Below, piece after piece: positions 16,944 to 37,824 of a DNA stretch of 64,000 nucleotides. The translations under genes and the position numbers were made by a program. Source of the DNA: Terriglobales bacterium (lineage in GTDB: Bacteria; Acidobacteriota; Terriglobia; Terriglobales; Acidobacteriaceae); the NCBI GenBank assembly GCA_035573675.1, contig DATMAB010000027.1:62001-126000 (forward strand), in the 5' to 3' direction. Every line of letters begins with the position of its first letter. Position 1 is the stretch's first letter. The notes under the pieces are model-generated. The model worked only from the letters and a program-made list of their open reading frames with translations, searched no databases and was not told the origin of the DNA.

Positions 16944-16992
16944 GAATCCCAGTTTCAAGTTTCCGGTCTCAAGTTTCAAGTAAAGCGGCGCT

Positions 16993-17027
16993 CCCGTTCG
17001 CGCCGCTCCTTTCGGCGCTAACGTGGG
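16993..17027. repeat. Palindromic repeat, family A (CGTTCGCGCC...GGCGCTAACGTGGG)
   Basis: Matches the third unit of the tandem array at 31.69 kb almost base for base (CCTTTCGGCGCTAACGTGGGC). It lies between divergent dtd and the amidohydrolase gene, after a stuttering TTTCAAGTTTC run at 16945-16981. Confidence 0.75.
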
Positions 17028-17119
17028 CGACGCTCCACCGCTTCTTGTTCCCCATCTCTGTTATTGACGCCGCCCCCGCCACTTCCTAGAATCCCTTTTC
17101 CCTTTTCGGAGGTTCCTCG

Positions 17120-30614: not shown

Positions 30615-30781
30615 CGGCTGCTCCTGCAGGGTCCTGGGGCGACTCCAGTATGCCCTACAAATCTGACTCCGTGTCATTGGACGCGCCCGTGCAAGGATTG
30701 TGAGCAAGCCCCAAAGCTCGCAGACCCGCAGGAATCAAGGGCTTGCTGGAACGAACAGGCCAAGTAACCAAAGCACCCGAA

Positions 30782-30828
30782 GGTGGCCCATGTCTGTGCC
30801 CCGCTTTTTCGGGCGCAGACGTGGGATT
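30782..30828. repeat. Family A palindrome in sigma-nuclease gap
   Basis: CCCATGTCTGTGCCCC...GGGCGCAGACGTGGG, an imperfect palindrome related to the 31.4-kb array. It is part of the 397-bp gap 30615-31011, which otherwise turns abruptly AT-rich after 30890 and holds only the promoter listed next. Confidence 0.65.
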
Positions 30829-30969
30829 CTCGTGCGATGGCGTCGCCCGAATGCGGACCCTGGAGTCCCGGGCAACGGCCCTTGTCAAGCTTTTTCTTTT
30901 CTTCCCTTTAACTCGTTGAAAACAGGTAGGAATCCGTCACAACTCAACACAGATGATATTCTAATTTCT

Positions 30970-30986
30970 GCTATAATACATTATAG
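30970..30986 (+). promoter_or_regulatory. Extended -10 promoter overlapped by a palindrome, nuclease gene
   Basis: TGCTATAAT is a perfect extended -10 (TGn-TATAAT, 30969-30977). The same bases form half of CTATAAT-AC-ATTATAG, a 7-bp-arm palindrome (30971-30986), so a bound repressor would block the promoter. No -35 is present, as expected for the extended type. Confidence 0.65.
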
Positions 30987-31011
30987 AATATGTAAGAAAG
31001 AAATACAACCT

Positions 31012-31485
31012 ATGCCCCTCTCCTCCTCCCCCGCCAAAGCTCAGGGAGAGGAGGTCGAAGTCCGGTTCCTGCTGAAGGCCCTCACTCTGGGCCTGGCCGT
31101 GTCCCAACCTTACGGGGACAACGTCCCCTACGACTTCCTGGTGGACAACGGCCGTCGCATCTTCCGCGTGCAGGTGAAGAGTGCCACCCGCTTCGACCTC
31201 GGCTCCTACCGTCTTTCCACCGCCCGCGGCGGTCGCCAGAAGTCGCCTTACTCGGCTCACGAGATCGATTTTCTCGCCGCCTACATCATCCCCGAAGAAG
31301 CCTGGTACCTGCTTCCCGTCCGCGCCTTCGCCCCGCGCAAGTCCCTGCGCCTCTGCCCGCGCAACGGCCGCCCGGGCTCCCGCCCGCTTCGCCTCGAACG
31401 TTACCGCGAAGCCTGGCGCCTGCTGACCGGAACCGCTGACGGTGCCCCACGTTCGCGCCTGCCGTTGGCGCGTACGTGGGGTTAG
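31012..31485 (+). CDS. PDDEXK_5-type endonuclease (group I intron-associated type)
   Basis: A 157-residue protein. GEEVEVRFLLKALTLGLAVSQPYGDNVPYDFLVDNGRRIFRVQVKSATRF gives the nuclease order: Glu in helix 1, Asp in YDFLV, and the Q-x-K of VQVK. IDFLAAYIIPEEAWYLLPVRAF and KSLRLCPRNG continue the family pattern known from I-SspI-like enzymes. No group I intron is near, so it is freestanding. The final 15 residues (from DGAPRSRLPLARTWG) are encoded by the first unit of the tandem repeat array, so the native C-terminus has been replaced or extended. Confidence 0.8.
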   Translation: MPLSSSPAKAQGEEVEVRFLLKALTLGLAVSQPYGDNVPYDFLVDNGRRIFRVQVKSATRFDLGSYRLSTARGGRQKSPYSAHEIDFLAAYIIPEEAWYLLPVRAFAPRKSLRLCPRNGRPGSRPLRLERYREAWRLLTGTADGAPRSRLPLARTWG

Positions 31486-31733
31486 TTCGGGTCGCCGCAC
31501 CGTGTCCGACACCATCGTCTCTGTTGTTGGAACGACAGGCGGGAAAAACCAGCACGTTGCGACGATGCCCCACGTTCGCGCCTGCCGTTGGCGCGTACGT
31601 GGGTTAGTTCGGGTCGCCGCACCGTGTCCGACATCATCGTCTCTGTTGTTGGAACGACAGGTGGGAAAAACCAGGACGTTGCGACGGTGCCCCACGTTCG
31701 CGCCGCGCCTTTCGGCGCTAACGTGGGCCCGGC
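31443..31733. repeat. Tandem array of a 122/123-bp palindrome-bearing unit (2.3 copies, family A)
   Basis: Units start at 31443, 31566 and 31688 (TGCCCCACG). Each begins with a palindrome of about 37 bp (CCCACGTTCGCGCC...GGCGCGTACGTGGG), followed by about 85 bp (with CTCTGTTGTTGGAACGACAGG and GGGAAAAACCAG). Units 1 and 2 differ at only a few bases. The third ends after its palindrome and carries the CCTTTCGGCGCTAACGTGGGC version also found at 16,993. The gap 31486-31924 holds no gene. Confidence 0.9.
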
Positions 31734-31924
31734 TGTCCCGCCCTTGTCGCTCCCGTTGTTGCAGCGACCGCATGAGAGCACGAGCACGTGAATTTGACGC
31801 GAACTACAAAACCGGCAGCAACCAGTCGCGAAGCGACGGCAAAAAGCCTCGCGGCGTTTTGCAGCGCAGGAGTTATAGACACCACGGCCGGCGGTTTTGC
31901 AGACCCGCCGGCCGCAGGGAACTC

Positions 31925-32377
31925 TTACTCCGCCGCTTCCTTCTCCACCACCACCTGGATGGTGGCGGCGACGTCGCGGTGCAGCTTCACTTTGACCGCG
32001 AACTCGCCCAGCGCCTTGATAGGCTGGTCCAGCTCGATCTTGCGGCGGTCGACCTCGAAGCCCTGCGCGGCCAGCGCTTCGGCGATATCCACCGAGGTCA
32101 CCGAGCCGAACAGGTGGTCCTGTTCCCCCGCCTTGCGCTGGAAGGTGAGGCGCGCGCCCTCCAGCTGTCCGGCCAGCGTGGCCGCACCCGCCTTCTCCTG
32201 CGCCGCGCGGCGCTCCGCCGCCTGCTTCATCTGCGCAATCACGGCCCGGTTGGCTTCGGTGGCCTCGATGGCCAGCTTGCGTGGGATCAGATAATTGCGG
32301 CCATAGCCTTCGGCCACCTTCACGATCTCGCCCCGGTGGCCCAGCTTGGCCACATCTTCTTTCAGAATGACGTCCAT
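31925..32377 (-). CDS. rplI: 50S ribosomal protein L9
   Basis: A 150-residue protein. The N-terminal MDVILKEDVAKLGHRGEIVKVAEGYGRNYLIPRKLA is the RNA-binding L9 domain, followed by the long connecting helix and the C-terminal domain ending in a short Glu/Ala tail. It is last in the rpsF-rpsR-rplI run. The stop lies 192 bp beyond the tandem repeat array. A stuttering repeat fills the gap to rpsR. Confidence 0.96.
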   Translation of the reverse strand: MDVILKEDVAKLGHRGEIVKVAEGYGRNYLIPRKLAIEATEANRAVIAQMKQAAERRAAQEKAGAATLAGQLEGARLTFQRKAGEQDHLFGSVTSVDIAEALAAQGFEVDRRKIELDQPIKALGEFAVKVKLHRDVAATIQVVVEKEAAE

Positions 32378-32384
32378 GAAATCA

Positions 32385-32456
32385 GCTCCTAGCTGCTAGC
32401 TACTAGCTTCTAGCCAAAAGCGCCTGGCTCCTAGCTAGCCGCTAGTAGCCAGTGGC
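32385..32456. repeat. Stuttering CTAGCTxCTAGCTxCTAG repeat between rpsR and rplI
   Basis: About eight degenerate copies of CTAGC(T/C). A similar element follows rpsR at 32850-32893. Confidence 0.7.
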
Positions 32457-32460
32457 TTCC

Positions 32461-32832
32461 TTACCGCACCGCAAACGGCAGGAACGCGATGTTGCGCGCC
32501 TGCTTGATGGCGTTGGTCAGCCGCCGCTGGTGGGGCGAGCACACGCCCGTCACCCGGCGCGGCACGATCTTGCCGCTCTCGCCCACGAATTGTTGCAGCA
32601 GGCGCACGTCCTTATAGTCGATCGAATCGATCTTCTCCACGCAGAACTTGCACACCTTCTTGCGCCGGAAGAATTTGCGCCCTTCGCGCCCCCCCGGCCC
32701 GCCCGGCCGCGGACCGCCCGGTCCGCGCCTTGGCCCCGGCCCTGCAGCCGGTGCCGTCGCTGGCGCCGGCGTTTCGACCGTCCCCTCCGGCGCCGCCGGG
32801 GTTCCGCCGTTTTGAATCTCTTCGTCTGCCAT
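32461..32832 (-). CDS. rpsR: 30S ribosomal protein S18 with N-terminal extension
   Basis: A 123-residue protein. The last 70 residues are S18 proper ([39 protein letters not shown]... to ARNIAFLPF). The first 50 residues are an acidic then Pro/Gly/Arg-rich extension ([20 protein letters not shown]) that is not present in E. coli. CKFC and the later Cys suggest a zinc site (the zinc-retaining S18 form). It belongs to the rpsF-rpsR-rplI cluster, but ssb, which often lies between rpsF and rpsR, is absent. Confidence 0.95.
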
Positions 32833-32894
32833 GTTTCTCCTTAGAGTGAGCTTCTAGCGGCTGGCCTCTGGCTAGAAGCCAGAAGCTGGCATGG

Positions 32895-33290: not shown

Positions 33291-33320
33291 TGCGTCCTCA
33301 TTTCTATTGTTTCCACTCTC

Positions 33321-33365
33321 GGTGCCCCATGTCTGCGCCACGCCTCTCACCGCAGACGCGGGCAT
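33321..33365. repeat. Family A palindrome upstream of rpsF
   Basis: GGTGCCCCATGTCTGCGCC...CGCAGACGCGGGCATC, the same family as the array at 31.4 kb. A short stuttering GAAACTTGAAACTCGAAACT follows at 33367-33387. Confidence 0.65.
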
Positions 33366-37205: not shown

Positions 37206-37824
37206 GGGGACGGAATTCTAAATCAGCACTTAGCACTCAGCATTCAGCAATCAGCAAGAACAAAGGACAAACGCGGATTGAAGCGGATGAACGCGGATGG
37301 GTTCAGGTATCAGGTCGCAGGGGTCCGGTGCTGGAAACCCATTCCCCCACGACTGCGCCGAACACCATGGCGCAGACATGGGGCACCGTCGCAGGAAAAA
37401 CAGACCCTCAGTCACGGATTAACACGGATGGACACGGATGAAGTCATCTGGTCATGGGGTGAAACCACCCCCGCGAAGTGGGGTCATCGTAATGGCGCGC
37501 AGCGCTCAGGTCAATTGGGGGGTCGGGTAGGACGGACCGGGAAAAATCTAGCCACGGATGACACGGATAAACACGGATTGTGTGACCCTAGAAAACCGAA
37601 AGCTCAACCACAAAGGACACAAAGGGAGCACGAAGAAACGTGAAGGCTGCGAAATTTTCCCACCTTGTCCCTTCAAAGGCGGGAGGGACAAGGGTGGGGC
37701 AACCGACGTTAGTTCCGGTCTTAGGTGTCAGGTCTCAGGTCTCAGGGATGGACCAGTTCCTCTGTGCCTCCGTGTCTCGGTGGTTAAATCTGCGGTAATC
37801 CGCGTGGATCCGCGGCGGAAAGTT
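37206..37824. repeat. 619-bp repeat-filled gap between ispE and ruvB
   Basis: No gene. It holds stuttering CAGCACTTAGCACTCAGCATTCAGC (37222-37258). CGCGGATxxACGCGGAT runs (family C) are at 37268-37300, 37412-37441, 37552-37580 and 37791-37817. There is a half copy of family A (37366-37390), a TCAGGTCTCAGGT stutter (37721-37747) and family D copies at 37605-37640 and 37758-37787. Confidence 0.85.

Follow-up and report, generated by a model that had tools for sequence, protein, structure and literature searches.

The described systems closest to the present locus are the REP/BIME/REPIN repeats with their RAYT (TnpAREP) genes, whose repeats carry a GTAG or GTGG foot; the IS200/IS605 elements, in which TnpB serves TnpA by cutting so that the element is copied back; and the PDDEXK_5 homing endonucleases such as I-Ssp6803I (PDB 2ost). 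To our knowledge, PDDEXK_5 nucleases are unrelated to TnpB. In Acidobacteria, Y1 transposases with long flanking inverted repeats (TIRYT) form TIRtrons; one TIRtron repeat family is dispersed in Koribacter versatilis, and some of these repeats are self-complementary and occur in dimers or clusters (PMC3733652).

The locus lies in a stretch of 64,000 nucleotides from a Terriglobales genome, called the window here, where the 3' end of a PDDEXK_5 nuclease gene runs into a tandem array of palindromes. The palindrome, REP-A, resembles the REP/BIME/REPIN repeats in being a short imperfect hairpin with a conserved 5' foot, dispersed as about 95 covariance-model matches across the 3.16-Mb genome in singles, pairs and clusters, and in forming inverted pairs that flank a Y1/HUH gene in a REPtron-like manner. 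It departs from them in its foot, which is GGTG, in that several of its clusters are direct and not alternating, and in that an intact cognate transposase was not found in the window's genome. The likeness to TIRtrons, acidobacterial Y1 transposases flanked by inverted repeats, is one of description and not of sequence alignment. As for the nuclease, a YD..VQVKS stretch is common to it and I-Ssp6803I, from which it differs by being free-standing and multi-copy and by having no group I intron, according to Rfam scans of the window and 20 nuclease-holding loci. Y1 transposase genes occur near nuclease genes here as in IS200/IS605 TnpA-TnpB; however, the relation is a statistical neighbourhood in variable orientation and not a conserved unit. 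The features of the window are as follows.

16985..17029, plus strand: single REP-A, 30.0 bits.
30779..30827, plus strand: single REP-A upstream of the nuclease, 54.4 bits; absent from the orthologous site of a congener.
30880..31011, plus strand: AT-rich promoter stretch with TGCTATAAT, 33% GC, the 132 bp upstream of the nuclease.
31012..31485, plus strand: PDDEXK_5 nuclease (I-Ssp6803I-like), 157 aa, Pfam PF11645, E 2e-20.
31438..31482, plus strand: REP-A copy 1 (unit 1), covariance model 55.0 bits, hairpin z -4.6; overlaps the nuclease 3' end.
31514..31546, plus strand: degenerate hairpin-like motif of unit 1, REP-B-like, resembling GTCGCT..GTTGGAGCGACAGGGTGGG 3' of REP-A at C18:288-289 kb.
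31561..31605, plus strand: REP-A copy 2 (unit 2), 49.0 bits, hairpin z -5.1.
31636..31668, plus strand: REP-B-like motif of unit 2.
31683..31729, plus strand: REP-A copy 3 (diverged unit 3), 64.3 bits, hairpin z -3.9.
31745..31778, plus strand: REP-B-like motif of unit 3.
33319..33364, plus strand: single decayed REP-A, 38.4 bits; weak fold, z -1.65.
37344..37389, minus strand: single full-length REP-A, 58.6 bits.

The palindrome is a REP element dispersed genome-wide and not a local curiosity. REP-A is a 46-nt element composed of the GGTG foot, one C and the imperfect hairpin CCCAYGTYYGCGCC..GGCGCRNACGTGGG. Over 36 copies the GGT of the foot is invariant and its last G is present in at least 90%; the consensus stem has 14 bp, changes on both sides are seen in these copies at 5 of the 14 predicted pairs, and the two main stem variants, CCCATGTCTGCGCC..GGCGCAGACGTGGG and CCCACGTTCGCGCC..GGCGCTAACGTGGG, have compensatory pairs. 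A hairpin-forming imperfect palindrome, a conserved 5' foot tetranucleotide and many dispersed copies, the hallmarks of REPs, are all observed, and a mainly extragenic location is judged from a sample of copies, the one at the nuclease overlapping the gene end. The 91 listed positions make up 68 sites, of which 18 are clusters of two to four, and clusters are present elsewhere in the same genome, away from nucleases. Folded as DNA, six of the seven window copies beat their shuffles (z -3.2 to -5.2), the exception being the copy at 33319. The covariance model returned four matches up to E 0.3, two of which are both strands of one copy, in 400 kb of control stretches picked by hand from the genomes that supplied the RAYT loci described below. 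An earlier, sequence-only reading of this DNA had recorded single palindromes at 16,993, 30,782 and 33,321, and the model finds REP-A at each of them; what it took for half a palindrome at 37,366 is a full minus-strand copy (37344-37389, 58.6 bits).

The array itself is a REP cluster and, as such, ordinary in kind. Tandem Repeats Finder delimits it to 31438-31727, with a period of 122, 2.4 copies and 92% matches, which bears out the earlier description of a tandem 122-bp palindromic array made of two near-identical units and a partial third: units 1 and 2 are 96% identical across 104 nt, and unit 3 has the palindrome and part of the spacer in common with them. The hairpins of the three units, folded as DNA, reach -16.9 to -18.8 kcal/mol (z -3.9 to -5.1). 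It also holds that the unit supplies the last 15 residues and the stop of the nuclease, the TAG at 31483-31485 following directly on the palindrome at 31438-31482. Each unit is a composite, in which the REP-A hairpin precedes another, degenerate hairpin-like motif (near CCCACCCTTGTCGCTCC..GGAGCGACAAGGTGGG); the 49-nt stretch containing the unit 1 copy of this motif folds no better than its shuffles (z 0.42). The same pairing recurs at C18:288-289 kb and C27:388 kb of the same genome, where there is no nuclease match for several kilobases around.

The nuclease belongs to the PDDEXK_5 family, with a PF11645 score of 73.6 bits (curated cut-off 26.1) and a match to I-Ssp6803I at E 8e-14 over residues 8-139. 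The family has 10 matches in the window's genome, and the named relatives of the enzyme come from acidobacterial assemblies and one cyanobacterium. Its description as a freestanding PDDEXK_5 nuclease agrees with the Pfam match and the Rfam scans, in which a surrounding group I intron was sought and rejected. Two further candidates were set aside: a defence system, for which the sole match at the locus is the PADLOC 'HEase' model on the nuclease (E 7e-14), and a plasmid or phage origin, for which the search gave distant relatives only (32-39% identity among the matches listed). The gene had been placed in an AT-richer island, but its body has 67% GC against 65% for the window, and only 30880-31011 is AT-rich. 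The operator-overlapped promoter proposed for it survives in part, since TGCTATAAT is kept in the congener's orthologue whereas the dyad over the -10 box is not. Two nuclease paralogues with similar upstream sequence lie some 7 kb apart (L076 and L077, G000:C27:275-283 kb), which suggests a local duplication. Within the window, clusters of short GCTAGCTACTAGC-like repeats in both orientations, at 32385-32457 and 32850-32891, bracket a small ribosomal-protein ORF (32461-32832).

The orthologous nuclease of the congener (G001) is 92% identical and ends in '..YREAWRLLLG*', and the palindrome was observed on neither side of it: both the array and the upstream REP are absent. DNA similarity between the two genomes breaks off at 30763, short of the upstream REP, and at 31425, short of the array, and picks up again at 31933, past about 3.4 kb of different congener sequence. 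This 3.4 kb, with other predicted genes, stands opposite window positions 31433-31932 (reverse complement of L080, 3620-7030); between the nuclease and the ribosomal-protein genes the window has no more than the REP array plus about 0.2 kb, and the 578-aa protein encoded between nuclease and rplI in the congener has no match in the window's genome. Several nuclease paralogues stop close to the conserved YREAWxLL, a few residues away at most, and others have longer tails. Since a stop at the conserved C-terminus is common to the orthologue and several paralogues, the array and the tail appear dispensable for the nuclease lineage; judged by this comparison of sequences, array and nuclease are separable. 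The nucleases at G000:C4 and G001:C50 are orthologues as well. The order at G001:C50 is nuclease-REP-RAYT-REP, and at G000:C4 the nuclease is followed by a single REP, without a RAYT (L074 3003-3561 against L082 2998-4242), a difference consistent with loss of the RAYT between like-oriented REPs or with its gain in G001.

Many Y1_Tnp transposases (PF01797) occur in the family, and a covariance-model scan for REP-A was made over 20 RAYT loci from REP-bearing relatives. Inverted REP-A-like pairs were observed to flank Y1_Tnp genes in G030 (54.9 and 51.2 bits), G006 (two loci), G016 and G026, and further RAYT loci have a REP-A-like hairpin on one side only; several of the RAYT-flanking scores are low, at 16-25 bits. 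The single Y1_Tnp match of the congener (C50:23357-23695) sits between REP-A copies. None of the seven Y1_Tnp genes of the window's genome was seen to have REP-A on both sides, flanks being resolved for all but the one on C15; a different hairpin with a GGTGCCCC foot lies near those on C25 and C1. The cognate RAYT of REP-A may have been lost from this genome or may be unassembled. Across 37 genomes, REP-A copy number goes with that of all RAYTs at a Spearman coefficient of 0.38 (p 0.02). The anatomy of these loci points to RAYT-driven movement of REP-A, and Y1/HUH transposases with inverted REP pairs would be likelier movers of the palindrome than the nuclease. In G025, a REP lies inside a RAYT gene (L230 2619-2651), whose reading frame apparently continues through it.

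Another Y1_Tnp group is accompanied by the Rfam 'sRNA' Acido-Lenti-1 (RF01687), found beside it at 7 of 12 loci scanned and, at four of them (L012, L172, L173 and L175), on both sides of the transposase gene; an 80 kb control of the same scan had none. In the window's genome it lies around both C7 Y1_Tnp genes and near those on C26 and C21. The matches are these.

L078: 3365-3411, 3944-3990 and 5048-5094.
L012: 1378-1423 and 1966-2011.
L013 and L171-L175: further matches.

Acido-Lenti-1 was listed in its founding paper merely as a candidate structured RNA (PMC2864571); its position suggests a further RAYT-linked REP and not an RNA gene in its own right.

The sequence-only reading had proposed that nuclease and array form a mobility or maintenance module of the repeat, with palindrome copy number expected to track the nuclease. 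It does not: over 37 genomes the Spearman coefficient between REP-A and nuclease copy number is 0.29 (p 0.08), and at least 10 REP-A copies occur in 10 of 26 nuclease-free genomes against 3 of 11 with the nuclease. REP-A is abundant without any detected nuclease in six same-family genomes (41 copies in G022, 34 in G026, 29 in G019, 24 in G035, 21 in G032 and 20 in G030), a finding that, together with the orthologue that has neither array nor palindrome and the clusters found away from nucleases in the window's genome, speaks against such a module. For the palindrome, this is the outcome that the sequence-only reading had itself named as its refutation. What remains of the proposed link is that the two are neighbours more often than by chance.

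The nuclease family does tend to lie near REPs and RAYT genes, clearly more often than chance would have it. Among the matches listed, 7 of 66 nucleases lie less than 3 kb from a Y1_Tnp gene where 0.70 would be expected, against 1 of 140 PIN-domain genes with 1.46 expected (Fisher p 0.002), expected counts assuming uniform placement and ignoring gene density. Replication in 28 further genomes gave 15 of 106 nucleases within 3 kb of a RAYT (1.03 expected) and 11 of 106 within 1 kb (0.42 expected), again among the matches listed. A hand-made detector, built with these loci already in view, looks for a GTGCCC foot and a hairpin. It returned 69 REP-like matches in the 468 kb surrounding 78 nuclease matches (17 of these nuclease matches come from loci selected because a RAYT is close by), whereas control stretches totalling 400 kb, which like the detector were picked by hand during the analysis, gave 5. 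In the 60 loci that were not RAYT-selected, 13 of 61 nuclease matches, at 12 loci, have a REP-like element no farther than 650 bp away, compared with 0 of 40 PIN loci (p 0.001). Of 12 REPs lying less than 400 bp from the 3' end of a nuclease gene, 11 share its strand, three of the twelve coming from RAYT-selected loci; at other genes the split is 17:15 (Fisher p 0.03), a comparison that rests on crude gene calls. Nuclease, REP, RAYT and REP all run in one direction at G001:C50 and G025:C325. Where the RAYT lies with respect to the nuclease, and which way it points, differ from locus to locus, so the two do not form an operon. Since the expectation is uniform, some loci are orthologous and hence not independent (C4 and C50), PIN toxin genes are the sole control family, the controls were hand-picked and the gene calls are crude, the association is a replicated lead and not a mechanism. 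In the literature search, no paper joining RAYT with a homing endonuclease was found.

We lean, if only slightly, towards ascribing this association to a shared niche, in which nucleases, RAYTs and REPs gather in permissive parts of the chromosome that they share, with no functional link. Such a niche accounts for the association and is compatible with the REP reading of the array; it fits the mixed orientations and distances, the clustering of RAYTs with one another (G093:C16, G007:C29) and the conservation of a nuclease with differing REPs around it. However, PIN toxin genes, which are likewise multi-copy accessory genes, show no enrichment near RAYTs or REPs, and the niche does not predict the same-strand bias at nuclease 3' ends. 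These very points would favour a functional partnership, in which PDDEXK_5 nucleases might, for instance, cut REPs or the sites that RAYTs have vacated and thereby have the element copied back, much as TnpB does for TnpA, the 3'-end REP being part of the unit. The replicated proximity of nucleases to RAYTs, the REP-like elements near nuclease but not PIN loci, the same-strand REPs at the 3' end and the two unidirectional loci all speak for it. It is nevertheless unlikely, for the side and orientation of the RAYT vary, the majority of nucleases lie away from any REP or RAYT, RAYTs and REPs are also found without nucleases, and the orthologue of the window's nuclease has no REP. Equally doubtful is a loose module of nuclease, same-strand 3' REP and RAYT, in which the nuclease would promote retention or copying of REP and RAYT in a TnpB-like manner, nucleases of this type then being recurrent partners of RAYT/REP systems throughout the bacterial family.

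That the array was selected as a 3' element, its hairpins stabilising the mRNA or acting as a terminator, or that it encodes a functional tail, seems quite improbable. Stable hairpins do stand at the end of the nuclease gene and the open frame continues through the REP, but no array follows the conserved C-terminus at which the orthologue and several paralogues stop, and REPs adjoin gene starts as often as gene ends (by crude gene calls). Moreover, unit 1 has one extra G relative to unit 2, so the reading frame is not maintained between units.

Very probably, the array is a cluster of REP-A that arose by RAYT-type dispersal at the end of a pre-existing nuclease gene and subsequent tandem duplication. 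REP-A would be a DNA hairpin repeat that is not autonomous and owes its dispersal to a single-strand Y1/HUH transposase of the RAYT/TIRYT type; having arrived at the 3' end of a homing-type PDDEXK_5 nuclease gene already in place, it would have taken over the stop codon, the protein thereby gaining a short REP-encoded tail that is presumably neutral for its function. We infer that this was a gain in the window's genome rather than a loss in the congener, and that one composite unit was then duplicated in tandem. Against dispersal followed by duplication as the whole account stand the want, in the window's genome, of a Y1_Tnp gene seen with REP-A on both sides, and the co-localisation of the nuclease family with RAYTs and REPs, which the pure chance landing of REPs fails to explain.

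A nuclease that spreads its own palindromes gives way, then, to a likelier account, that of Y1-linked REPs of which one cluster replaced a gene end. Should the neighbourhood of nuclease and RAYT prove functional, it would bear on how REPs and domesticated transposases persist without moving as a unit.
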